Part shown: positions 7,422 through 35,260 of the stretch, in pieces
Position numbering within the stretch: position 1 is the stretch's first letter
How the letters are laid out: the number at the start of each line of letters is the position of its first letter
From: a virus
Strand: one strand, 5' to 3'
DNA: 42,876 bases
IMG/VR virus record: IMGVR_UViG_3300042002_000032
Span: 1 to 42,876 of that record
Notes under the pieces: model-generated
Told to the model about the DNA's origin: nothing
Database searches by the model: none
The model's input: only the letters and a program-made list of their open reading frames with translations
Translations under genes and position numbers: made by a program

Positions 7422-10187
7422 CTAAGCTCCTTCCTCAAGTACACTGTTAAGAGTAGTAACACTAACACCCAAAGCTTCTGCTACTTCCGCCCTAGTGTAG
7501 TCCGCATTCAACATGTTCTTAGCACGTGTGACATTAGCAGGTAGCATACCTGGCTTCTCTCGTGGAGTAGCCAATGCCTTGATGTCTTCGTCCTTCATGT
7601 TGTCTAGGATCTGCTCTAGTTTGTTGTTACTAATAGCGCCCGCTTGAATAGCATTCCATTCCATGGGGGTTAGTACAATGTTGGTCTTCTTAGCGTTTAC
7701 CCTATTACGGGCTTCGTTCTGAGCCAACGTCTTTAGCTTCTTGATCTCTGCTTTGTCCATGTCAGGATTAGCTTGTAGCTTAGCCTTAACGGTGATGTTA
7801 GCAAAGACCTGGGCTTGTCTTTCAAGGGGCTTGTTTCTGAGAGCGATAGCTAGCTTATCATCCAGAGACTTAACTTCTGGAGCGTAAGCTTTCCGAGCAG
7901 AGGCATTAAAACTTTGAGGTGGGGTATTAAGCCACGCTAGACGTGCCTCATTTGCCATTCCCTTAAGTTTGTTTGCATGCAGAGCATACTCGACTTCAAT
8001 AGGTCGACCTCCATTCCTAGAGATCAATGAGATAGCATCATTGGTTTCTGCCATCTTTGTAGACTTTTCAGTCTTGTACCTAATGTTACCCTTCGAATCC
8101 AGAAGGGGGTTACCTTCTTTATCCTTCATCATAGCATCATCAGCAATGGTTCGGATCTTCTCACCAGTCTTAGGATCGATAGTGCGAGCACTGGGGTTCC
8201 ATTGCTTACGCTTCGGTACTGATGACTGTGATGTTGCTTTCGATATAAGAGTTGATGCACCTGCTCGAGCAGACCCTTGATATTTAGCTTTAAGATCGGC
8301 GATATTATTATCTTTAGCCGATTGCTTATAATTGAGATGGTGTTTCTGAGCATCAATAACAACCATAGAATGCTTAACGGCTCGAGCAAGCTCATGATCA
8401 TTTGCACCCAATATAGTCATATCTGTAATCAGATTTGAAATATCACCCATCAATCGCTGCGTCATACCAGTAGGATTCTTCATATGCTTAATGCCCGGCA
8501 TATCGTCCGGCATACCATATTTAGATTTAGCATCGAAGCCCTCAAGATCTTGAAGGGGGGGTTTATTTTTGAGAGACCGATTGTTATTCGGAATCACAAG
8601 AACCGTATCCCCATCAAAGTCTGCACCCGACAACCGTTCTGCGACCTTTGAATGGATACCAACGGCATCCTTTGCGCCCTTAATAGGTTCAATCGCAGGT
8701 CTGTTTCGGTTATTTACTGTGAGTTCTGGAATCTCAAATATACCACCGTGAGGGTAGCGAATAAGAGAAACCTTTTCTCCATTGTTAAAGTTCGGTGCAT
8801 ATATCTCATCTTCCTTCAGTTTATTGATAGGAAGAATAACCTGAGTACGCTGTCTCGGAAGCGCAGCAGCTTTAAGATGAACAGCTGAAGAATCAAGATC
8901 GTCAGCCAGCGAGTTCAAGAGTTTCCTCTTAATTGCTGGGTTTGTCAGAGCCATGATTTCTTCGAATTCTGCCCGTTTCTCATCAGCACGAAGAGCAAGC
9001 TGTCGCTTAGCTAGAACTGGAGACTGCTTGGACAAGACCTGTGAAGATATACTCTTCGACCACTTATCCCAGTCACCCTCTTCATAGACGATATTCATCG
9101 CCGAGGAGACCTTTTTGTTTCCATTCTTATCGACAATATCGTTGCCGTCTTTATCCTTTGCGAACTGTTGACGAACAATCGATCCGAAGGGATTAGTCTG
9201 ATCAACCTTTCCCGTTTCTTTGTCGATCTTCTGAGGTTTCATTGCATCGAGCTTGTTTCCGGTATCGCTCTTGTTCGTATTGAACATGAGATCGACTCCA
9301 GGAGGTAGATCGTCATTGTAGACGGCCATACCTTTCAAGTAGTGAGTACCAGCAACACCGATTCGAACCTGTGCATAACGAGACTTACCCAAGGAAATAT
9401 CCTCGACACCTCGACGAACGTGAATAACACCATCCATCGCGGCTCCTCCATCAGGTCCATACCGAACGCCGACTCTCGAGAGGTCTACGTTCAGTGGAGG
9501 CTGAATTTGGTCAAAGGATCTACCATTGTCGCGAGTGAAGGCCATGATCTGACTGATGTTTTCTTGCTTCTGATATACGTCAGAGTAAGGAACATCAGGT
9601 CGAGCAAGAACCTTCATGTTTGTTTTCTTACCGCTCATTTGGTCGACTTGGAATCCGTAAACGTGATATCCTTCGGACTGAAGTTTAGTAACTGCAGCAC
9701 TTAGACGTTCACGGCTAACGCCGAGCTGAGCCTCGACGCCTTGACCAATATCGACCATCGCTTTCTCATCAACTGCAGCTCGAACAGTATTAGAGAGTGT
9801 CTCGAGCTTCTCGACCTTTTCCTTGGTTCGCTCCGAAAGGAGTGCTCGAACAGATGACTCATTTGCCATACCCAACTTCTCAGCGATAACTGTGTTGGAA
9901 TTGCCTGCTTCTTTGAGCTTAGTAGCTCGAGCAATAAGATCCTGTTTGATCTCATGTTTAGCAATGGCTTTGTTGTCTCGAAGTTGCTTTGAAGTAAGAC
10001 CGACGCCCTCGGCAATTTCCTTCTCTGAGAGACCCTTTTTCTTCAGGTCATCAACATACATTAGGAATGATTTATTGCGCTGACCAGGGTTCTCGCCACT
10101 ACCCCAAGGGTAGCGACCAGAATGCTTCGGTGTTCCGATATGGAATATGAGTGGACCCTCGTCATTAAGGAAGGTACCCGTTGTCAT
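7422..10187 (-). CDS. Single-chain RNA polymerase-like protein (YonO/beta-prime-type DFDGD)
   Basis: 921 residues from the ATG at 10185-10187, eight bases after AGAGGAGG. A longer frame to 10208 lacks this site. The catalytic signature is SGADFDGDTV near residues 520-529, preceded by RYPHGGIFEIP. This is the arrangement of the metal-binding double-psi barrel of beta-prime-type RNA polymerases and of the phage YonO family. The N-terminus has HSGRYPWGSGENP and then two helix-turn-helix-like segments (about residues 50-75 and 90-120). The C-terminus has a third one, YTRAEVAEALGVSVTTLNSVL. The likely role is transcription of some phage genes. The DFDGD signature is firm, while promoter use is unknown. 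Confidence 0.78.
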   Translation of the reverse strand: MTTGTFLNDEGPLIFHIGTPKHSGRYPWGSGENPGQRNKSFLMYVDDLKKKGLSEKEIAEGVGLTSKQLRDNKAIAKHEIKQDLIARATKLKEAGNSNTVIAEKLGMANESSVRALLSERTKEKVEKLETLSNTVRAAVDEKAMVDIGQGVEAQLGVSRERLSAAVTKLQSEGYHVYGFQVDQMSGKKTNMKVLARPDVPYSDVYQKQENISQIMAFTRDNGRSFDQIQPPLNVDLSRVGVRYGPDGGAAMDGVIHVRRGVEDISLGKSRYAQVRIGVAGTHYLKGMAVYNDDLPPGVDLMFNTNKSDTGNKLDAMKPQKIDKETGKVDQTNPFGSIVRQQFAKDKDGNDIVDKNGNKKVSSAMNIVYEEGDWDKWSKSISSQVLSKQSPVLAKRQLALRADEKRAEFEEIMALTNPAIKRKLLNSLADDLDSSAVHLKAAALPRQRTQVILPINKLKEDEIYAPNFNNGEKVSLIRYPHGGIFEIPELTVNNRNRPAIEPIKGAKDAVGIHSKVAERLSGADFDGDTVLVIPNNNRSLKNKPPLQDLEGFDAKSKYGMPDDMPGIKHMKNPTGMTQRLMGDISNLITDMTILGANDHELARAVKHSMVVIDAQKHHLNYKQSAKDNNIADLKAKYQGSARAGASTLISKATSQSSVPKRKQWNPSARTIDPKTGEKIRTIADDAMMKDKEGNPLLDSKGNIRYKTEKSTKMAETNDAISLISRNGGRPIEVEYALHANKLKGMANEARLAWLNTPPQSFNASARKAYAPEVKSLDDKLAIALRNKPLERQAQVFANITVKAKLQANPDMDKAEIKKLKTLAQNEARNRVNAKKTNIVLTPMEWNAIQAGAISNNKLEQILDNMKDEDIKALATPREKPGMLPANVTRAKNMLNADYTRAEVAEALGVSVTTLNSVLEEGA

Positions 10188-10759
10188 GCTAGTGCCTCCT
10201 CTTTCCAAGAATCAAGCAGATCGCTGTAGGACTTCATAAGACTCATGATCTCAACAATCTCGGGAACCAAATCAGGATTCGTCTCGAGGTTGCAATATTT
10301 GATCTCATCCATTTGGTAGATGCGCAGTTCAATATCAATACTGCCTGGAAGGATCTGGTATTCGTGACAGAACATTGCCGCGTAGACCATGAGTTGATCC
10401 ATCTTTGCTGGGGTTTCACCAGTCTTAAGATCATGGATCCTCAGCATGTTGTTACGGAAGGATATGGCATCTGCAGTACCGAAACAGTTGTCTGAGTAAT
10501 ATAGAACCTGCTCCGGTGTCATACGAAAGCCGATTGCATCATTGACATACATCGCCATCGTAGTATTTGAGCCACGAAGCTTGAGTCCCTTCTTAATAAG
10601 GAGGGACGCAATATCATGGAGTTCAGATCCTTCTTGGGCAGCGAGGGCTTTTCGGAATGTTTCCGCTAGCTGTTCCTCATCATAGCGAATCCAAGCGTAT
10701 TTACTTGCGCTTAGAAACGCGTGTTTTCCTTGAAGGTTGAAGTGCGTGTTGAAGTTCAT
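10184..10759 (-). CDS. PD-(D/E)XK exonuclease, Cas4/RecB-like
   Basis: 191 residues. The nuclease core is visible as an N-terminal helix with EGSELHD, then GTADAI (first catalytic Asp), then IHDLKTG (the D-x-K pair), then a helix with QLMVYAAMF whose Gln and Tyr match the family's motif IV. Such proteins process DNA ends in phage recombination or replication. There is no visible iron-sulphur cysteine cluster. The stop overlaps the start of the RNA polymerase-like gene as ATGA. The gene start overlaps the upstream VRR-NUC gene by 59 nt. Confidence 0.85.
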
Positions 10760-11093: not shown

Positions 11094-11120
11094 TCATTAT
11101 AATCGATGTATAAAATGCGT
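11094..11120 (-). promoter_or_regulatory. Leftward promoter, motif copy a
   Basis: Minus strand reads ACGCA, 5 nt, TACAT, 3 nt, TTATAATGA. It is the most divergent and most distant of the twelve copies. It faces the nuclease-RNA polymerase operon, and its upstream side is the repeat-rich region. Confidence 0.7.
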
Positions 11121-26197: not shown

Positions 26198-27112
26198 CTA
26201 GATCTGGTTCCAGACGATGCCATCTACGTTGAAGTTCATCAACAAGCAGTCGCCAAGTTCCTCATCCGAACCGAAGATACGTGCGTCACGATTACGACTT
26301 CCCTGAAGGTCTACGATGCCGAAGCTGATGTGGTTTTCGTTGTCCGGTCCGAGAACCCAACCAACAACGGAACCTTCCTTGGTACGAGGCATTCCGATCG
26401 CATCGAAGATATCGTTAAGGAAGACGTGACCACGAATGCTAAGAAGCTGGTTCGCGTAGGTCTCGTTGGCCGTAAGGGTCATCAGGTTGTAGTCGGGAGA
26501 GGTAGTCTTCCAGTTCGGGTTGTTGTGATCATAAATGAACGTGAATCCCTTGCTGAGATCGATCTCTCCTTCGACCTTGATGTCCTTGGTACCGTTTTCG
26601 TCAACGGTTTCAGTGACCTTGTAGCCTCGGTGGAACTCCTCGTCCTTCTCCAGACCAAACTCCTCAACAACGCGAGCACGGTAACGATCGAAGGTCTCTT
26701 CGAGAGTCTTGTAAGCAGCGATGGCACCGACAGTACGCTTGTACTGAATTCCCTGACCACCGATGATGCAAGAAATGGAGACAACACCGAGAGAGATCGG
26801 AAGACCATAAAGCTTGCCGAGGTTCTTGGCGGTGTGAAGATATACCTTAGTGACGTCCCTCTTGTGGTGGGTGCTAGAGTACTCCTCTGCCGTCATGGTG
26901 GTCTTCTTCTCGTGAATATCGCTCATTCGCTCCGAGTGTTCGTCGATTACACTTTCGAGCTTAAGAGTGGACTTAGCGGCAAGAACACCAGCCGCAACGA
27001 CACCTACTACACCGACGGTGGTGAGGATCTGAGGGCTGAACTTCTGAACAACAGCAGTCGCACGACCAACGCTGTTGATGTTCTTGATGGATTCGATTAC
27101 TGACAAAGACAT
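26198..27112 (-). CDS. DUF6353-like membrane protein, paralogue 1
   Basis: 304 residues. A hydrophobic segment lies at about residues 28-46 (TTVGVVGVVAAGVLAAKST). A second segment lies around 100-120 with LPISLGVVSISCIIGGQGI. A cytoplasmic-type domain with DYNLMTLTANETYANQLLSIRG follows. The paired-helix layout and the phrase SxACIIGxQ recur in the gene at 31739-32578, so the two are paralogues. The family is common in phages and has no assigned role. Confidence 0.78.
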   Translation of the reverse strand: MSLSVIESIKNINSVGRATAVVQKFSPQILTTVGVVGVVAAGVLAAKSTLKLESVIDEHSERMSDIHEKKTTMTAEEYSSTHHKRDVTKVYLHTAKNLGKLYGLPISLGVVSISCIIGGQGIQYKRTVGAIAAYKTLEETFDRYRARVVEEFGLEKDEEFHRGYKVTETVDENGTKDIKVEGEIDLSKGFTFIYDHNNPNWKTTSPDYNLMTLTANETYANQLLSIRGHVFLNDIFDAIGMPRTKEGSVVGWVLGPDNENHISFGIVDLQGSRNRDARIFGSDEELGDCLLMNFNVDGIVWNQI

Positions 27113-28969: not shown

Positions 28970-29245
28970 TTACTCTACGTCGGTGATGTTATGAACTTTG
29001 GTTCCTTTCTTAATCTGTTCGTAGGCATCTACGCACTGATCGATGATTCCGCCGGTGTACTTGGAGGCAGCGTCAGAAACGATTCCAGCGACCGCGAAAC
29101 TACCGACGAAAATACCAACTTTTCGGATGGTGTTGATGTCGGCAGGCGTGGTCATGTTAATCGCATTCTTAACAATGACTCCTGCACCGTAAGAAGCAGC
29201 GCCAGTGGCGATGACTTTCGTTACTGTGATTGGGTTAATTTTCAT
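28970..29245 (-). CDS. Small membrane protein, cassette type
   Basis: 91 residues from the ATG at 29243-29245 after AAAGGAATTATT. Two glycine/alanine-rich hydrophobic segments are visible (about residues 8-28 and 42-62), followed by a helical tail. It has its own promoter (29272-29298) and terminator (28933-28960), like the units near 33 kb. The family is unknown. Confidence 0.72.
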   Translation of the reverse strand: MKINPITVTKVIATGAASYGAGVIVKNAINMTTPADINTIRKVGIFVGSFAVAGIVSDAASKYTGGIIDQCVDAYEQIKKGTKVHNITDVE

Positions 29246-29271: not shown

Positions 29272-29298
29272 TCATTATAAGGTGTGTATTTCTTGCGA
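29272..29298 (-). promoter_or_regulatory. Leftward promoter, motif copy b
   Basis: Minus strand reads TCGCA, 5 nt, TACAC, 3 nt, TTATAATGA. It faces the gene 28970-29245. A GC-rich hairpin abuts its upstream edge. Confidence 0.8.
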
Positions 29299-30941: not shown

Positions 30942-31154
30942 TTAGTTCTCTTCAGCCTTGGGGGCTTCAGGTTCGGTTGTGGGTTCCGATGGTTCAGTTG
31001 TTTCGACGTTAATGACTGGTGCGTTTGAAGGCTTGGGTCGGCTGATAGCGCTGCTGAAAATCATTCCAACGGCGATACCAGCAAATCCGACTGCCTTCAA
31101 GGCAAGGTCACTACGACGTTCGGGGCTGATCTTATCGGCGAATTTCTCGAACAT
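30942..31154 (-). CDS. Small membrane protein, cassette type
   Basis: 70 residues. MFEKFADKISPERRSDLALK leads to one hydrophobic glycine/alanine segment (about residues 21-38). The tail is acidic and Pro/Thr/Glu-rich. It has its own promoter (31187-31213) and terminator (30896-30928). The ATG follows AAGGAGAAATC, the same leader as in other cassettes. Confidence 0.72.
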   Translation of the reverse strand: MFEKFADKISPERRSDLALKAVGFAGIAVGMIFSSAISRPKPSNAPVINVETTEPSEPTTEPEAPKAEEN

Positions 31155-31186
31155 GATTTCTCCTTATGTAAGGGATTTAACGGGTG

Positions 31187-31213
31187 TCATTATAAGGCGT
31201 GTGATTCTTGCGA
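31187..31213 (-). promoter_or_regulatory. Leftward promoter, motif copy c, inside a gene end
   Basis: Minus strand reads TCGCA, 5 nt, CACAC, 3 nt, TTATAATGA. It coincides with the last codons of the 31190-31729 gene, and the stop TAA is part of the TATAAT box. It drives the 30942-31154 gene. Confidence 0.78.
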
Positions 31214-31738: not shown

Positions 31739-32578
31739 TTATCCTCCGAACTTCCAGTAGTTTCGTATCGGGTTCATAGAGAAGGTGATCACGATGCAGG
31801 GTTCATCGTTAGTGAGTACTACTGACTTGCGTACGTTCAACAAGTCATCCGCTTGCCAACCGAGTTCTTCACCCATCTCGGTGTGGTCTAGATCAAGATA
31901 ACCATAGAACTCGTTCAACGATGCGTATGCATTATTGTTCAAGTCGAAGTTGATCTTGTTTACGGCCTTGTCGACTTTGTCTACCGTGCTACGGAAATAA
32001 CGACCAGACAACTTGTCCATGAACAGATGGTCATTTCCAGAGGACACAACCACTACCTGCTCTTGAACTGGAGGGTTTGAATCAACGGTATCCTGAGCGA
32101 TATCCGTATGAACCTTATCGGACTTATTCTTTCCGAAGGTTTCTTCGACTTTCTCCTGAAGTTCTATAAAGGACTTCTCAGAAAGAGCATAAGCACTAAC
32201 AAGTGCAGCATGCCTACGAGTGTTGACAGACTGTGCACCAATGATGCAAGCGATCGTTACAACACCCACACCAGCGGCAGGTACATAATGCTTCCAGCAG
32301 AGCTTTACAACTTCGGTCTTGGTTAGGGGTTCGGTTCGTTCGGACTCTGCGTGCTGAATATCAATAAGCGCTGGTTTGGTTGCCCTGACTGCAAGTACAG
32401 CAGTCGTTACTACTCCCGCAATGGCTACGCCAGTGAGAATAGCAGGCGAGTTATTTGTAGCGAAGTCGCGAGCCTTCCCGGCAATACTCGCAATATGCAT
32501 CATTTTGTTAGGCCTGACTTTCTGTTTCGATCCAAGTACAAACTGAACATATGTTCGAACTGGGTTAGAACCCGACAT
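31739..32578 (-). CDS. DUF6353-like membrane protein, paralogue 2
   Basis: 279 residues from the ATG at 32576-32578 after GGAAGGAGAAG. Hydrophobic segments lie at about residues 48-64 (AILTGVAIAGVVTTAVLAV) and 102-120 (AAGVGVVTIACIIGAQS). A C-terminal domain with NNAYASLNEFYGYLDLDH follows. The layout and motifs mirror the gene at 26198-27112. A terminator-like hairpin ending in eight U residues lies only ~22 bp upstream of the start, so expression may be attenuated. Confidence 0.78.
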   Translation of the reverse strand: MSGSNPVRTYVQFVLGSKQKVRPNKMMHIASIAGKARDFATNNSPAILTGVAIAGVVTTAVLAVRATKPALIDIQHAESERTEPLTKTEVVKLCWKHYVPAAGVGVVTIACIIGAQSVNTRRHAALVSAYALSEKSFIELQEKVEETFGKNKSDKVHTDIAQDTVDSNPPVQEQVVVVSSGNDHLFMDKLSGRYFRSTVDKVDKAVNKINFDLNNNAYASLNEFYGYLDLDHTEMGEELGWQADDLLNVRKSVVLTNDEPCIVITFSMNPIRNYWKFGG

Positions 32579-32600
32579 TGTACTTCTCCTTCCAAGAGAC

Positions 32601-32629
32601 AAAAAAAAGTGTAACCCGCTAAGGTTACA
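32601..32629 (-). terminator. Terminator or attenuator upstream of 32578 gene
   Basis: TGTAACC (32610-32616) pairs with GGTTACA (32623-32629), followed on the minus strand by C and eight T. It ends the 32601-32750 RNA and directly precedes the ribosome site of the DUF6353-like gene. Confidence 0.82.
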
Positions 32630-32750
32630 GTGAGGGAGGTGAGCGGCCCAGTCGAAGCCAACTCCGTTAACTACCTGTATATCTTTCTGGTAGCACGCTA
32701 GGCAGGATTTGAACCTGCATTCGATGTCTTAGCATCCAAACAAATGGATC
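32601..32750 (-). ncRNA. Short RNA with tRNA-like T-arm, or attenuated leader
   Basis: Transcript expected from promoter 32755-32781 to the U-run at 32601-32608. It contains GCAGG-TTCAAAT-CCTGC (32702-32718), a perfect T-arm. Just 5' are a stem GATG/CATC with a 6-nt loop and a stem ATCC/GGAT. Downstream, CTACC pairs with GGTAG. No acceptor stem is found and the loop before the T-arm is one base short for an anticodon loop, so it is not a canonical tRNA. No ORF is present. Confidence 0.6.
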
Positions 32751-32754
32751 TCTC

Positions 32755-32781
32755 TCATTATAATCTGTGTAATTCTTGCGA
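32755..32781 (-). promoter_or_regulatory. Leftward promoter, motif copy d
   Basis: Minus strand reads TCGCA, 5 nt, TACAC, 3 nt, TTATAATGA. It drives the tRNA-like RNA or leader 32601-32750. The U-run of the second RNA (32786-32791) abuts it. Confidence 0.8.
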
Positions 32782-32785
32782 ACAC

Positions 32786-32870
32786 AAAAAAGGGAGAAGG
32801 CCCGAGGGGAGCGACGAACTTCCTCGAGACCGGTTACATCTAAGTAACTACATTCGCGTTACAGTGCTTC
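32786..32870 (-). ncRNA. Short RNA of about 85 nt, function unknown
   Basis: Bounded by promoter 32875-32901 and a terminator-like end. GGTCTCGAGG (32822-32831) pairs with CCTCGGGCC (32799-32807) with one bulge and two G-U pairs, then TTCTCCC and six T. Inside, GTAAC, GTTAC and GTAAC can form two alternative stems. No start codon with a ribosome site and no frame of useful length is present. A loop TTCGTCG near the 3' side resembles a T-loop. Confidence 0.58.
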
Positions 32871-32874
32871 CTTC

Positions 32875-32901
32875 TCATTATAAGGCGTGTAAATCTTGCG
32901 A
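32875..32901 (-). promoter_or_regulatory. Leftward promoter, motif copy e
   Basis: Minus strand reads TCGCA, AGATT, TACAC, GCC, TTATAATGA. It drives the ~85-nt RNA. The terminator of the next unit ends four bases upstream. Confidence 0.82.
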
Positions 32902-32905
32902 ATGC

Positions 32906-32934
32906 AAAAAAGTAGAACCCGTGTTGGGTCCTAC
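32906..32934 (-). terminator. Cassette terminator after 32942-33181
   Basis: GTAGAACCC (32912-32920) pairs with GGGTCCTAC (32926-32934), one G-U, then six T on the minus strand. Confidence 0.85.
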
Positions 32935-32941
32935 CTTGTGA

Positions 32942-33181
32942 TTAGTTGTTCTTCTTGTCGAAGGCGTTTTCGGTTGCAATAACAGTGATCTGATTGATCG
33001 TCTTAAGTACCATGGCAGCACCCATGACGGAGACAGTTGCGACTGCCGCGTACTTAACAAGGTCTTTAGCGTGTGCTATAGTTTCCTCGTTAATGAACGG
33101 GTTAGTCTTCACTGTTTCCTCCATTGGGGTCTGCTCGTTGTCTTTGACGAGCTTAATCTTGATCGAGTGGTTCTTGAACAT
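32942..33181 (-). CDS. Small membrane protein, cassette type
   Basis: 79 residues. A polar N-terminal half (MFKNHSIKIKLVKDNEQ) is followed by a hydrophobic segment at about residues 44-62 (YAAVATVSVMGAAMVLKTI) and a short polar end. The leader AAGGAGAAATC is shared with the 30942-31154 gene. It has its own promoter (33215-33241) and terminator. Confidence 0.73.
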   Translation of the reverse strand: MFKNHSIKIKLVKDNEQTPMEETVKTNPFINEETIAHAKDLVKYAAVATVSVMGAAMVLKTINQITVIATENAFDKKNN

Positions 33182-33214
33182 GATTTCTCCTTGTGTAAAG
33201 TGGTGAATTTCTTC

Positions 33215-33241
33215 TCATTATAAGGCGTGTAAATCATGCGA
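33215..33241 (-). promoter_or_regulatory. Leftward promoter, motif copy f
   Basis: Minus strand reads TCGCA, TGATT, TACAC, GCC, TTATAATGA. The T-run of the preceding terminator shares base 33241 with this promoter. Confidence 0.84.
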
Positions 33242-33267
33242 AAAAGTAGATCCCGTGTGGGATCTAC
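33241..33267 (-). terminator. Cassette terminator after 33278-33445
   Basis: GTAGATCCC (33246-33254) and GGGATCTAC (33259-33267) form a perfect 9-bp stem with a 4-nt loop, then five T running straight into the next promoter. Confidence 0.88.
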
Positions 33268-33277
33268 TTTTAAGTGA

Positions 33278-33445
33278 TTAGTCGTTTAGTTCTTTTTTGG
33301 CGAATTTCTTCTGGAGTTCTTTAACTTCAATTGTTCCTACCCAGTCAATTGCCAGCTTACCAACCTGGTATGCGCCAAATGCGGCGAGTCCAATGATTGC
33401 GTAGGCCTTGATGTCCTTGGCAGAAATTTTCTTGTCATTTTCCAT
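33278..33445 (-). CDS. Small membrane protein, cassette type
   Basis: 55 residues from the ATG at 33443-33445 after AAGGAGAACATC. MENDKKISAKDIKAY is followed by one hydrophobic segment (AIIGLAAFGAYQVGKLAI) and a basic amphipathic tail. It has its own promoter (33478-33504) and terminator. The family is unknown. Confidence 0.72.
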   Translation of the reverse strand: MENDKKISAKDIKAYAIIGLAAFGAYQVGKLAIDWVGTIEVKELQKKFAKKELND

Positions 33446-33477
33446 GATGTTCTCCTTAGTAGAGGGTGTACTTCTTC

Positions 33478-33504
33478 TCATTATAAGGCGTGTAAATCAT
33501 GCGA
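33478..33504 (-). promoter_or_regulatory. Leftward promoter, motif copy g
   Basis: Minus strand reads TCGCA, TGATT, TACAC, GCC, TTATAATGA, identical to copy f. The T-run of the upstream terminator abuts it. Confidence 0.84.
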
Positions 33505-33534
33505 AAAACGAGAGCCCGTGTTAAGGGCCCTGCG
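33504..33534 (-). terminator. Cassette terminator after 33537-33776
   Basis: CGAGAGCCC (33509-33517) pairs imperfectly with GGGCCCTGCG (33525-33534), then five T on the minus strand. The stem overlaps the gene end closely. Confidence 0.75.
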
Positions 33535-33536
33535 TT

Positions 33537-33776
33537 TTATAGGGGGTTGTTGCGAAACTCTTCAATTTCTTCTCGGTCGGCTCCGATGAATTTCCAGAAC
33601 TCTTCCTGAAGATCGTGCTCCTGAAGGAACTTGTCGACAGTCTTCTGCTGCGCACGCATGATTACTACCAAGCCGACAGTTGTGGCTGTAGCGGTAATTG
33701 CGATTGCACCTTTCTTCCTGTCCCAAAAGTTCTTCATAGCAGCAATCTTTGAGGGTTTGTTGTTTACGATTTTCAT
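33537..33776 (-). CDS. Small membrane protein, cassette type
   Basis: 79 residues. A basic start (MKIVNNKPSKIAAMKNFWDRKK) is followed by a hydrophobic segment (AIAITATATTVGLVVIM) and an acidic helical tail (EEFWKFIGADREEIEEF). The ATG follows AAAGGATAATCTA. It has its own promoter (33807-33833) and terminator. Confidence 0.72.
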   Translation of the reverse strand: MKIVNNKPSKIAAMKNFWDRKKGAIAITATATTVGLVVIMRAQQKTVDKFLQEHDLQEEFWKFIGADREEIEEFRNNPL

Positions 33777-33806
33777 TAGATTATCCTTTATGATAGTGGG
33801 GGTGTT

Positions 33807-33833
33807 TCATTATAAGATGTGTAAAAACTGCGA
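33807..33833 (-). promoter_or_regulatory. Leftward promoter, motif copy h
   Basis: Minus strand reads TCGCA, GTTTT, TACAC, ATC, TTATAATGA. About 50 bp, including an AT-flanked inverted repeat, separate it from the preceding terminator. Confidence 0.82.
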
Positions 33834-33843
33834 TTGTTTTGTC

Positions 33844-33868
33844 AAAATTCCCACCCGGGCAATTTTTT
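33844..33868. repeat. AT-flanked inverted repeat, second copy
   Basis: AAAATTCCC and GGGCAATTTT flank a short CCCG-rich centre, closely resembling 7067-7090. It sits between the terminator and promoter h. On the minus strand it could form a short stem followed by a T-run. Confidence 0.5.
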
Positions 33869-33881
33869 AGAACCCATGTAG

Positions 33882-33907
33882 AAAAACAGAACCCATGTTG
33901 GGTCCTG
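33882..33907 (-). terminator. Cassette terminator after 33916-34131
   Basis: CAGAACCC (33887-33894) pairs with GGGTCCTG (33900-33907), one G-U, then five T on the minus strand. Confidence 0.8.
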
Positions 33908-33915
33908 CCTTTATC

Positions 33916-34131
33916 CTATAATTGGGTAATGACATCAAGATATTCTTTAATCTTCTCGTCACTTGGCTCATCGCCGAGGTTCTCGTAGAGAGTCGTAGCC
34001 TTTAGGAAAATACCTTCACGGCGCTTAATTTCAGAAAGCTCCTTATGGGTATTAACCATTATGGTTCCGACTCCTTTCAAGACTCCTACAACGATAGCGG
34101 AAACGAGCATTTGCTTCATCTTCATTTTCAT
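33916..34131 (-). CDS. Small membrane protein, cassette type
   Basis: 71 residues from the ATG at 34129-34131 after AAAGGAAACCC. MKMKMKQMLVSAIVVGVLKG gives a short hydrophobic segment. The rest is a soluble helix (HKELSEIKRREGIF and on) with an acidic tail. It has its own promoter (34153-34179) and terminator. Confidence 0.7.
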   Translation of the reverse strand: MKMKMKQMLVSAIVVGVLKGVGTIMVNTHKELSEIKRREGIFLKATTLYENLGDEPSDEKIKEYLDVITQL

Positions 34132-34152
34132 TGGGTTTCCTTTCATAGGGGG

Positions 34153-34179
34153 TCATTATAATCGGTGTAGAACTTACGA
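34153..34179 (-). promoter_or_regulatory. Leftward promoter, motif copy i
   Basis: Minus strand reads TCGTA, AGTTC, TACAC, CGA, TTATAATGA. One base in the first box differs from most copies. Confidence 0.8.
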
Positions 34180-34182
34180 CAC

Positions 34183-34207
34183 AAAAATAGAGCCCATGTG
34201 GGCCCTA
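34183..34207 (-). terminator. Cassette terminator after 34215-34445
   Basis: TAGAGCCC (34188-34195) pairs with GGGCCCTA (34200-34207), one G-U, 4-nt loop, then five T on the minus strand. Confidence 0.83.
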
Positions 34208-34214
34208 CTTTTAA

Positions 34215-34445
34215 CTAACGATTGATTATTCGGTTCCAAATTGATTTGATGTCTGGCTGAAGTACTGCTTTGATCTCGTACTCAAGCATGAACTCTTCAT
34301 AATGTATATCGCGAAGGTCCTTCATCATCTGAATAATATTCGGTGATGAAGAAGACTTTGCAATCTCATTCTCTAGAGTACAAGTGTTGAGGTTGAGCTC
34401 TGAGCGTCGTGCATAAAGCGCTTCGATCTTATCGAACTTGTCCAT
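34215..34445 (-). CDS. Soluble helical protein, cassette type
   Basis: 76 residues. Unlike its cassette neighbours it has no membrane segment. MDKFDKIEALYARRSELNL leads to further charged helices (MKDLRDIHYEEFMLEYEIK). It probably forms a helical hairpin or coiled coil. It has its own promoter (34467-34493) and terminator. Confidence 0.7.
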   Translation of the reverse strand: MDKFDKIEALYARRSELNLNTCTLENEIAKSSSSPNIIQMMKDLRDIHYEEFMLEYEIKAVLQPDIKSIWNRIINR

Positions 34446-34466
34446 AATTTTTCCTTTCGTTGGTGG

Positions 34467-34493
34467 TCAATATAACCCGTGTAAACTATGCGA
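34467..34493 (-). promoter_or_regulatory. Leftward promoter, motif copy j
   Basis: Minus strand reads TCGCA, TAGTT, TACAC, GGG, TTATATTGA. The -10 differs by one base from the others, so it may be weaker. Confidence 0.78.
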
Positions 34494-34497
34494 AGAC

Positions 34498-34528
34498 AAA
34501 AAAGGAGAACCCGTGTTAGGGGTCCTCC
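34498..34528 (-). terminator. Cassette terminator after 34535-34771
   Basis: GGAGAACCC (34504-34512) pairs with GGGTCCTCC (34520-34528), one G-U, then six T on the minus strand. Confidence 0.84.
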
Positions 34529-34534
34529 TCTTAA

Positions 34535-34771
34535 TCAATACTTCTTGATAATACTCTCGAAATCTTCATATGTCTTTTTGCGTTCTCGTCGTGAACGGAT
34601 CTTCTCTACTTTTGGTCCTTTGGTTTGGAACTTAGCATCTTCACGTTTGCGCTTCGCTAGTTTCTCGAAGGTAACTTCTGTGATGATACCGAGTCCTACT
34701 CCCGTAGCATATGCGGTAGCAGAAATTCCGGCAGTGGCTCCAACAGCAATCAGAATATGCTTGGGTTTCAC
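34535..34771 (-). CDS. Small membrane protein, cassette type
   Basis: 78 residues. MKPKHILIAVGATAGISATA and on to GVGLGIITEV form one hydrophobic hairpin-like segment. The remainder is strongly basic (FEKLAKRKREDAKF, RSRRERKK). It has its own promoter (34793-34819) and terminator. The family is unknown. Confidence 0.72.
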   Translation of the reverse strand: MKPKHILIAVGATAGISATAYATGVGLGIITEVTFEKLAKRKREDAKFQTKGPKVEKIRSRRERKKTYEDFESIIKKY

Positions 34772-34792
34772 GGTATTCCTTTCATAGTGGTT

Positions 34793-34819
34793 TCATTATG
34801 AGGCGTGTAAATTTTGCGA
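34793..34819 (-). promoter_or_regulatory. Leftward promoter, motif copy k
   Basis: Minus strand reads TCGCA, AAATT, TACAC, GCC, TCATAATGA. The -10 is CATAAT instead of TATAAT. Confidence 0.78.
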
Positions 34820-34850
34820 TTGCCGACACAATTTTTTATAACCCCTGCAG

Positions 34851-34895
34851 AAAACTGTATGCCGTGTCTAATTAACTTCTAGACACGGCATACAG
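34851..34895 (-). terminator. Strong terminator after 34921-35214
   Basis: A perfect 16-bp stem, CTGTATGCCGTGTCTA (34855-34870) with its complement (34880-34895), 9-nt loop, then TTTT on the minus strand. Confidence 0.88.
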
Positions 34896-34920
34896 CTGTG
34901 ATTACTTGTTGGTCGCGTGT

Positions 34921-35214
34921 TTAACGGAACTTACCAACGAAACCAAGGGCTTTGGTGGAAATGACGTGCAGCTTCTCGTGGTTGAGGATCAGGATGATAC
35001 CTGCGAGGTTACCAGCGACTGCGAGGAGAGCGTCTTTGCTAATCGGCTTCTGTGCTTCCGGTTCGGGAAGTCGAAGCTTGTAAAGCCTTTCGATCTCTTC
35101 GAGAATCGCATCGTACTCGGGGGTGCCAGACTGGGTCTTAGCAAGCTCGAGAAGTGCGTCGTCAATAGCCTTTTCAAGGCCGGGGCGGTTTTCTGGTTTG
35201 TTCTTGTTGAACAT
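34921..35214 (-). CDS. Conserved small phage membrane protein, cassette type
   Basis: 97 residues. The first 55 form charged helices (EKAIDDALLELAKTQSGTPEY). The C-terminal part DALLAVAGNLAGIILILNHE then ALGFVGKFR is a hydrophobic segment plus basic tail that I recognise from many actinobacteriophages. The ATG follows AAAGGAGAACC. It is the first unit of the cassette run, with promoter 35234-35260. Confidence 0.78.
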   Translation of the reverse strand: MFNKNKPENRPGLEKAIDDALLELAKTQSGTPEYDAILEEIERLYKLRLPEPEAQKPISKDALLAVAGNLAGIILILNHEKLHVISTKALGFVGKFR

Positions 35215-35233
35215 GGTTCTCCTTTCAAGAGGG

Positions 35234-35260
35234 TCATTATAACCCGTGTATTTTTCGCGA
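35234..35260 (-). promoter_or_regulatory. Leftward promoter, motif copy l
   Basis: Minus strand reads TCGCG, AAAAA, TACAC, GGG, TTATAATGA. It lies eight bases past the holin stop codon with no terminator in between, so late transcripts may also read into the cassettes. Confidence 0.8.

Follow-up and report, generated by a model that had tools for sequence, protein, structure and literature searches.

In T4-type phages, small dispensable open reading frames (ORFs) are reportedly separated by promoter-early stem-loop (PeSL) cassettes, said to have been described by Arbiol et al. in 2010, in which a terminator stem-loop is joined to a promoter and the repeated homology serves shuffling. Lambdoid morons comprise one or a few genes and bring along a promoter and terminator of their own; they are present patchily as scattered single insertions and are mostly driven by host promoters. 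Here we compare with these and further systems an array of nine short head-to-tail units, each opened by a 27-bp element, on the minus strand at 32.6-35.3 kb of the window, by which we mean the whole 42.9-kb fragment analysed of IMG/VR record IMGVR_UViG_3300042002_000032, a virus of a soil bacterium. Judged from the sequence, the locus is likely a shuffling cassette array whose elements are read by the phage's own single-chain two-barrel RNA polymerase, and it is the combination of shuffling cassettes and a phage polymerase regulon in one array that would be new. A literature search found the array and its promoter described nowhere, though most subscription journals lay outside its reach, so that an earlier description is possible.

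As in the PeSLs, a promoter and a stem-loop lie between the ORFs, and gain, loss and swaps are bounded by the element. However, T4 uses host sigma-70 early promoters, whereas sigma-70 features are missing from the present element, which goes along with a phage RNA polymerase; moreover, RNA-only cassettes also shuffle in the present array. The array works like PeSLs but, having another type of promoter and occurring in unrelated phages, is not one. With morons it shares the promoter and terminator of each unit and the patchy presence, yet related arrays hold up to 20 or more units with one promoter type.

The cluster K mycobacteriophages carry start-associated sequences (SAS) and ESAS, the latter being imperfect inverted repeats of 17 bp whose spacer varies (PMC3203893). 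These are likewise actinophage repeats before many small genes, conserved by gene, whereas the present element is a single rigid directional motif with TATAAT, paired with terminators, and forms no such inverted repeat. As for the polymerase, gp64/gp96 of P23-45 use conserved phage-specific promoter motifs, AT-rich or GC-rich (PMC10770324), and the promoter of YonO from SP-beta was reported undetermined in 2017 (PMC5467207). The likeness to both lies in the single chain, the DFDGD motif and the matching predicted fold, and for P23-45 also in the phage-specific motifs, which we set against the present element by their description. The genomes of these phages are not described as one-gene promoter arrays, in contrast to the locus studied here.

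Layout of the array and its junctions

At three or fewer mismatches, 12 elements were found in the window, all on the minus strand, with 0.01 expected and none on the other strand. They include all nine leftward elements of one type that an earlier note on this DNA had placed in consecutive units, and those of the isolated units it had noticed near 28.9-29.3 and 30.9-31.2 kb. Unit coordinates, all on the minus strand, are:

34921..35260, unit A: element 35234-35260; ORF 34921-35214, 97 amino acids, phrog_5818
34535..34819, unit B: element 34793-34819; ORF 34535-34771, 78 amino acids
34215..34493, unit C: element 34467-34493; ORF 34215-34445, 76 amino acids, not hydrophobic
33916..34179, unit D: element 34153-34179; ORF 33916-34131, 71 amino acids
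33537..33833, unit E: element 33807-33833; ORF 33537-33776, 79 amino acids; in all lineages compared
33278..33504, unit F: element 33478-33504; ORF 33278-33445, 55 amino acids
32942..33241, unit G: element 33215-33241; ORF 32942-33181, 79 amino acids; in all lineages compared
32787..32901, RNA-only unit alpha: element 32875-32901; structured RNA 32787-32876
32604..32781, RNA-only unit beta: element 32755-32781; RNA 32604-32756 with a tRNA T-arm-like hairpin (GCAGGTTCAAATCCTGC)
30942..31213, isolated unit: element 31187-31213; ORF 30942-31154, 70 amino acids
28970..29298, isolated unit: element 29272-29298; ORF 28970-29245, 91 amino acids

The array thus comprises seven small-ORF units (55-97 amino acids, each with a ribosome-binding site and a leader of 19-33 nt) and two RNA-only units (32785-32876 and 32604-32756), which, as previously noted, hold no ORF. 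The suggestion that most products are membrane proteins stands for six of the seven as far as hydropathy, its sole basis, can tell (mean of at least 1.36 in a 19-residue window), but not for unit C (0.28).

The units are separated by the following terminators, again on the minus strand:

34855..34895, hairpin closing unit A: perfect inverted repeat of 16 bp
34494..34529, terminator of unit B: gap of 4 nt between T-run and following promoter element
34180..34211, terminator of unit C: gap of 3 nt between T-run and following promoter element
33834..33911, double junction after unit D: terminator-family copy 33876-33911 and AT-rich hairpin near 33840-33865
33504..33535, terminator of unit E: T-run shares one base (33504) with the following element
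33241..33272, terminator of unit F: base 33241 belongs to both T-run and following element
32902..32937, terminator of unit G

Six T-runs lie 0-4 nt from the following element, congruent with the earlier observation that terminator and promoter abut or overlap in at least six junctions. Two of them share one base, namely 33241, as already pointed out, and 33504, and the remaining T-run junctions (34179, 34493, 32901, 32781) leave a gap of 3-4 nt. As for the view that every unit has an end hairpin, a strict scan scores 5 of the 12 window sites, the other unit ends being formed by different hairpins, such as the repeat at 34855-34895 and the AT-rich hairpin near 33840-33865, and such a strict single-hairpin scan overlooks many real junctions. 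Across 12 genomes, a hairpin with a T-tract was found within 70 nt upstream of 61 of 136 elements, versus 167 of 3600 random positions. The terminator loops share TAACACG or TAACAAG across genera (for example in 32902-32937 of the window), resembling the ACACG block of the promoter, and TAACA[CA]G is present in 21% of the 45-nt stretches upstream of elements as against 0.8% of random ones.

Gain, loss and replacement of single cassettes

Cassette order was compared between the window, its kin of 14 Arthrobacter globiformis phages, with Sporto the nearest, and IMG/VR contigs. In the direction of transcription, the window and the near-identical contig L062 read A-B-C-D-E-F-G-alpha-beta, Sporto A-H-D-I-E-J-G-gamma-beta, and contig L075 A-H-D-K-E-J-G-gamma-beta; ProfFrink, Egad and Stayer share A-I-C-E-J-G-L-gamma-alpha, from which Shiba and DoctorPepper differ by the lack of L. 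Unit A heads the array in every lineage examined, and its ORF is matched in 226 phage records (tblastn), with genus counts nearly equal to those of the RNA polymerase. Units B and F are confined to the window lineage; slot 2 is taken by H in Sporto and L075 and by I in Shiba and ProfFrink, and the slot of F is filled by J in the others. Unit D is matched by homologues in Sporto and L075, where the order differs. As C precedes D in the window, yet D-I in Sporto and I-C in ProfFrink imply the reverse, presence and absence alone cannot explain these orders.

Single cassettes have been gained, lost or replaced, with their edges in the terminator-promoter junctions. Cassette L forms a clean indel of 302-303 bp between near-identical phages, and both its edges lie inside a repeated terminator of about 31 bp, AAAGCTAGGACCC(C)AACACGGGTTCTAGTTTT. 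Between ProfFrink and Shiba, cassette C is 75.6% identical while its flanks reach 99.4% (I) and 100% (E, J and G), and the divergence starts in one junction and stops in the next. I and K interchange between conserved junctions, and the AT-rich hairpin type seen after unit D also precedes these two cassettes in relatives. RNA units are exchanged as well, each array holding two of the three RNA types alpha, beta and gamma. The proposal in the earlier note of a modular layout allowing gain and loss at shared junctions is hence supported by the L indel, the C replacement and the I/K swap, and the comparison of order and junctions in relatives that it had recommended gave clean swaps and conserved junctions.

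We picture a cassette as one small ORF or one structured RNA set between a phage promoter and a terminator, about 90-440 bp in all. The near-repeated terminators and promoters would permit homologous recombination, within a genome or between co-infecting relatives, each event adding, deleting or replacing one cassette; direct repeats of the junctions would be its substrate. That cassette edges fall at repeats would also suit operators or recombination sites, with the units expressed by read-through, and stoperator-like repeats occur in other actinophages. We regard this as very improbable, considering that the repeats are strictly oriented with transcription and sit at a fixed position before ribosome-binding sites and RNA 5' stems, that terminators just upstream would block read-through, and that the edges lie in the terminator or T-run as often as in the element.

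The element and its candidate polymerase

From 136 sites in 12 genomes we derived the consensus TCGCA-N5-TACA(C)-N4-TTATAATGAGA. The spacing TCGC-N15-TATAAT accounts for 122 cases and every other spacing for four at most, and conservation extends past TATAAT into GAGA. We infer that the element is a promoter. The hexamer, and the location 19-38 nt ahead of start codons, would also fit ordinary host sigma-70 promoters repeated by happenstance. However, TTGAC is not enriched 15-21 nt upstream of TATAAT; sigma-type TTGACA-N-TATAAT is absent from both strands of 50 kb of Sporto, and sigma-type promoters number one on the transcribed strand of the window versus 4.35 expected in shuffles. In addition, the core pattern was detected in 40 stretches of 257 Gb of bacterial genomes, nearly all as single matches, where about 30 were estimated by chance. 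Among relatives the hexamer has changed to AGTAAT (four of four sites in contig G056), TCTAAT or TGTAAT, with TCG and TAATGAGA retained; T-12, A-11 and T-7 of the sigma-70 -10 box are present in the window, but these variants, which lose A-11, stand at the equivalent positions in relatives. Rigid spacing, lack of a -35, chance frequency in bacteria and hexamer drift all argue against a sigma -10. A sigma-70 promoter is thus improbable, and host promoters repeated by happenstance are the most improbable of the explanations weighed.

A less easily dismissed, though still unlikely, alternative is that TATAAT serves as a -10 for the host RNA polymerase carrying its main sigma factor, and that a phage activator or appropriation factor on TCGC/TACA, in the manner of MotA/AsiA of T4, replaces the -35. 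The hexamer is a perfect sigma-70 -10 in most genomes, a -35 is lacking, TCGC lies at about -31, near a MotA-like position, and such a factor would be equally common to the phage family. On the other hand, AGTAAT, TCTAAT and TGTAAT lack the A on which sigma-dependent melting relies, although the blocks on either side are kept, the same element recurs in phages of Actinomycetota and Lactococcus, and predicted RNA structures take in the base right after TATAAT, which would be too near for a sigma start.

The last point derives from 21 RNA-only units with a T-run, which we folded from TATAAT onward. Pairing probability rises from 0.46 at T25 to 0.91 at G26, and across positions 26-31 it averages 0.889, versus 0.632 for body-shuffled units (standard deviation 0.038, maximum 0.718) and 0.396 for mRNA units. 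Pairs of 5' strand and terminator-side partner include GAGAAGAG/CTCTTCTC, GAGATG/CATCTC, GAGAAGG/CCTTCTC and GAAAGG/CCTTTC, and the outer stem of the alpha RNA begins at the G directly after TATAAT. As the RNA units fold from this G, transcripts probably begin there, a prediction that comes from modelled pairing.

The alpha RNA itself is an undescribed structured RNA family with strong covariation: both sides have changed in 13 of 26 pairs (0 of 500 shuffles). A covariance model from three sequences retrieves a fourth, independent homologue in L037 (E 6.8e-12), and an Rfam search returned no family for the alpha or beta RNA. The alpha copies, always directly behind an element, are:

32787-32876 of the window, minus strand
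7225-7314 of L002
6595-6686 of L148
91-180 of L037

The beta RNA, conserved in Sporto and L075 and perhaps a tRNA mimic, combines a hairpin like a tRNA T-arm with a UUCGAC block resembling that of tmRNA; as a tRNA it scores 18.1 bits against a gathering threshold of 29, and ARAGORN reports no tRNA. We also considered a permuted tmRNA, with T-arm and UUCGAC-like block in reversed order, and dropped it because even permissive thresholds yielded no match to a tmRNA model and because the covariation in L075 runs through the would-be CCA. Elsewhere, RNA cassettes comprise a real tRNA-Ala in ReqiPepy6 (L155 7207-7281), a tRNA-like RNA of 44.4 bits with a degenerate anticodon arm in Pherobrine (L153 6229-6295), and a short acceptor plus T-arm RNA in CapnMurica (L148 6476-6570), so that the RNA cassettes span tRNA to tRNA-like. 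Directly behind both RNA cassettes of the window lies a DUF6353 protein (31739-32602, minus strand), paralogous to another at 26198-27112 (minus strand), with homologues likewise placed in Sporto, Shiba and ProfFrink.

The obvious candidate for the reader is encoded in the window, and its operon with an exonuclease is itself preceded by a variant element that the earlier reading overlooked:

7422..10208, minus strand: candidate single-chain two-barrel RNA polymerase, PHROG_4291 (E 0), likely start ATG 10187
11094..11120, minus strand: variant element ACGCATTTTATACATCGATTATAATGA ahead of the operon of exonuclease and RNA polymerase

The variant element has counterparts in Sporto, ProfFrink, CapnMurica, Uzumaki and Mudcat, and the Sporto homologue of the polymerase is gp83. 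The protein holds the SGADFDGD motif in one chain, with helix-turn-helix (HTH)-like segments at both ends, and the three aspartates of DFDGD and G526 fall in invariant columns among 30 homologues. PDB sequence searches with the single sequence or a profile gave HTH fragments or nothing; an AlphaFold (AF2) model with a predicted local distance difference test score (pLDDT) of 79.7, however, matched QDE-1 (E 1.2e-10) and P74-26 gp62 (E 3e-7) in Foldseek, at probability 1.0, and also P23-45 gp64 (E 3e-7). The fold search thereby settled the fold assignment where the sequence search had failed. Many such genes carry no annotation beyond 'helix-turn-helix DNA binding protein', and the record of the ReqiPepy6 homologue (L144, gp106) notes similarity to gp75 of Lactococcus phage 1706, a 'structural protein', a hint that the polymerase may be a virion protein.

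The element accompanies this gene closely. All 19 motif-chosen records of at least 50 kb encode the polymerase, and 12 of 13 polymerase-chosen records have at least one element match, on a single strand; in G065, one of the twelve, the sole site is weak and matched by its control. The element is found in polymerase-bearing phages of Arthrobacter, Gordonia, Streptomyces, Rhodococcus and Curtobacterium, and in diverged versions in Lactococcus phages CHPC971 and P118. This spread across phages of Actinomycetota and Lactococcus makes a phage-encoded reader probable. What the earlier view had missed is, in all probability, that the element is no normal host promoter and follows a phage-encoded RNA polymerase through hosts of two phyla. 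TCGCA-N5-TACA-N5-TATAAT-GAGA would then be the promoter of the 7422-10208 polymerase, with the start at the G directly after TATAAT.

Several observations weigh against this explanation. The tie between motif and gene sits within one phage family, where other conserved genes might fill the role of reader; the motif was not found in FP_oengus or contig G064, both of which encode the polymerase; and P118 lacks the TCGC block. Furthermore, the QDE-1 match is at family level and not close (template modelling score, TM, 0.3), YonO transcribes late genes as a long operon, unlike the present array, and several of the 21 RNA units are homologous, so that independent families number fewer than 21.

A proposed phage polymerase regulon in a recombining array

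We nevertheless consider the phage polymerase the best candidate for the reader, and on balance favour a wider picture, in which a siphovirus family of Actinomycetota and Lactococcus deploys one-gene or one-RNA cassettes under some 5-30 dedicated promoters, which the single-chain two-barrel enzyme reads in a T7-like geometry, with a rigid element of roughly 25 bp and transcription beginning on the base that follows it. Considering that the polymerase's own operon has a variant element and that host-type promoters are almost absent, the enzyme may enter with the virion. As to genome ends, the left end of Sporto (L121 1-584) is a 584-bp non-coding stretch with long inverted repeats.

Single-chain two-barrel RNA polymerases are widespread in phages, and the YonO study left the promoter open (PMC5467207). 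A candidate promoter with more than 100 examples and a predicted start base makes that question directly testable, and if it is correct, this branch of polymerases would have its first defined promoter. Moreover, the array shows small phage genes of unknown function and small RNAs being traded singly with their neighbours left intact. If our reading holds, it would represent an orthogonal expression array made by nature, which recombines and also spreads tRNA-like RNAs.

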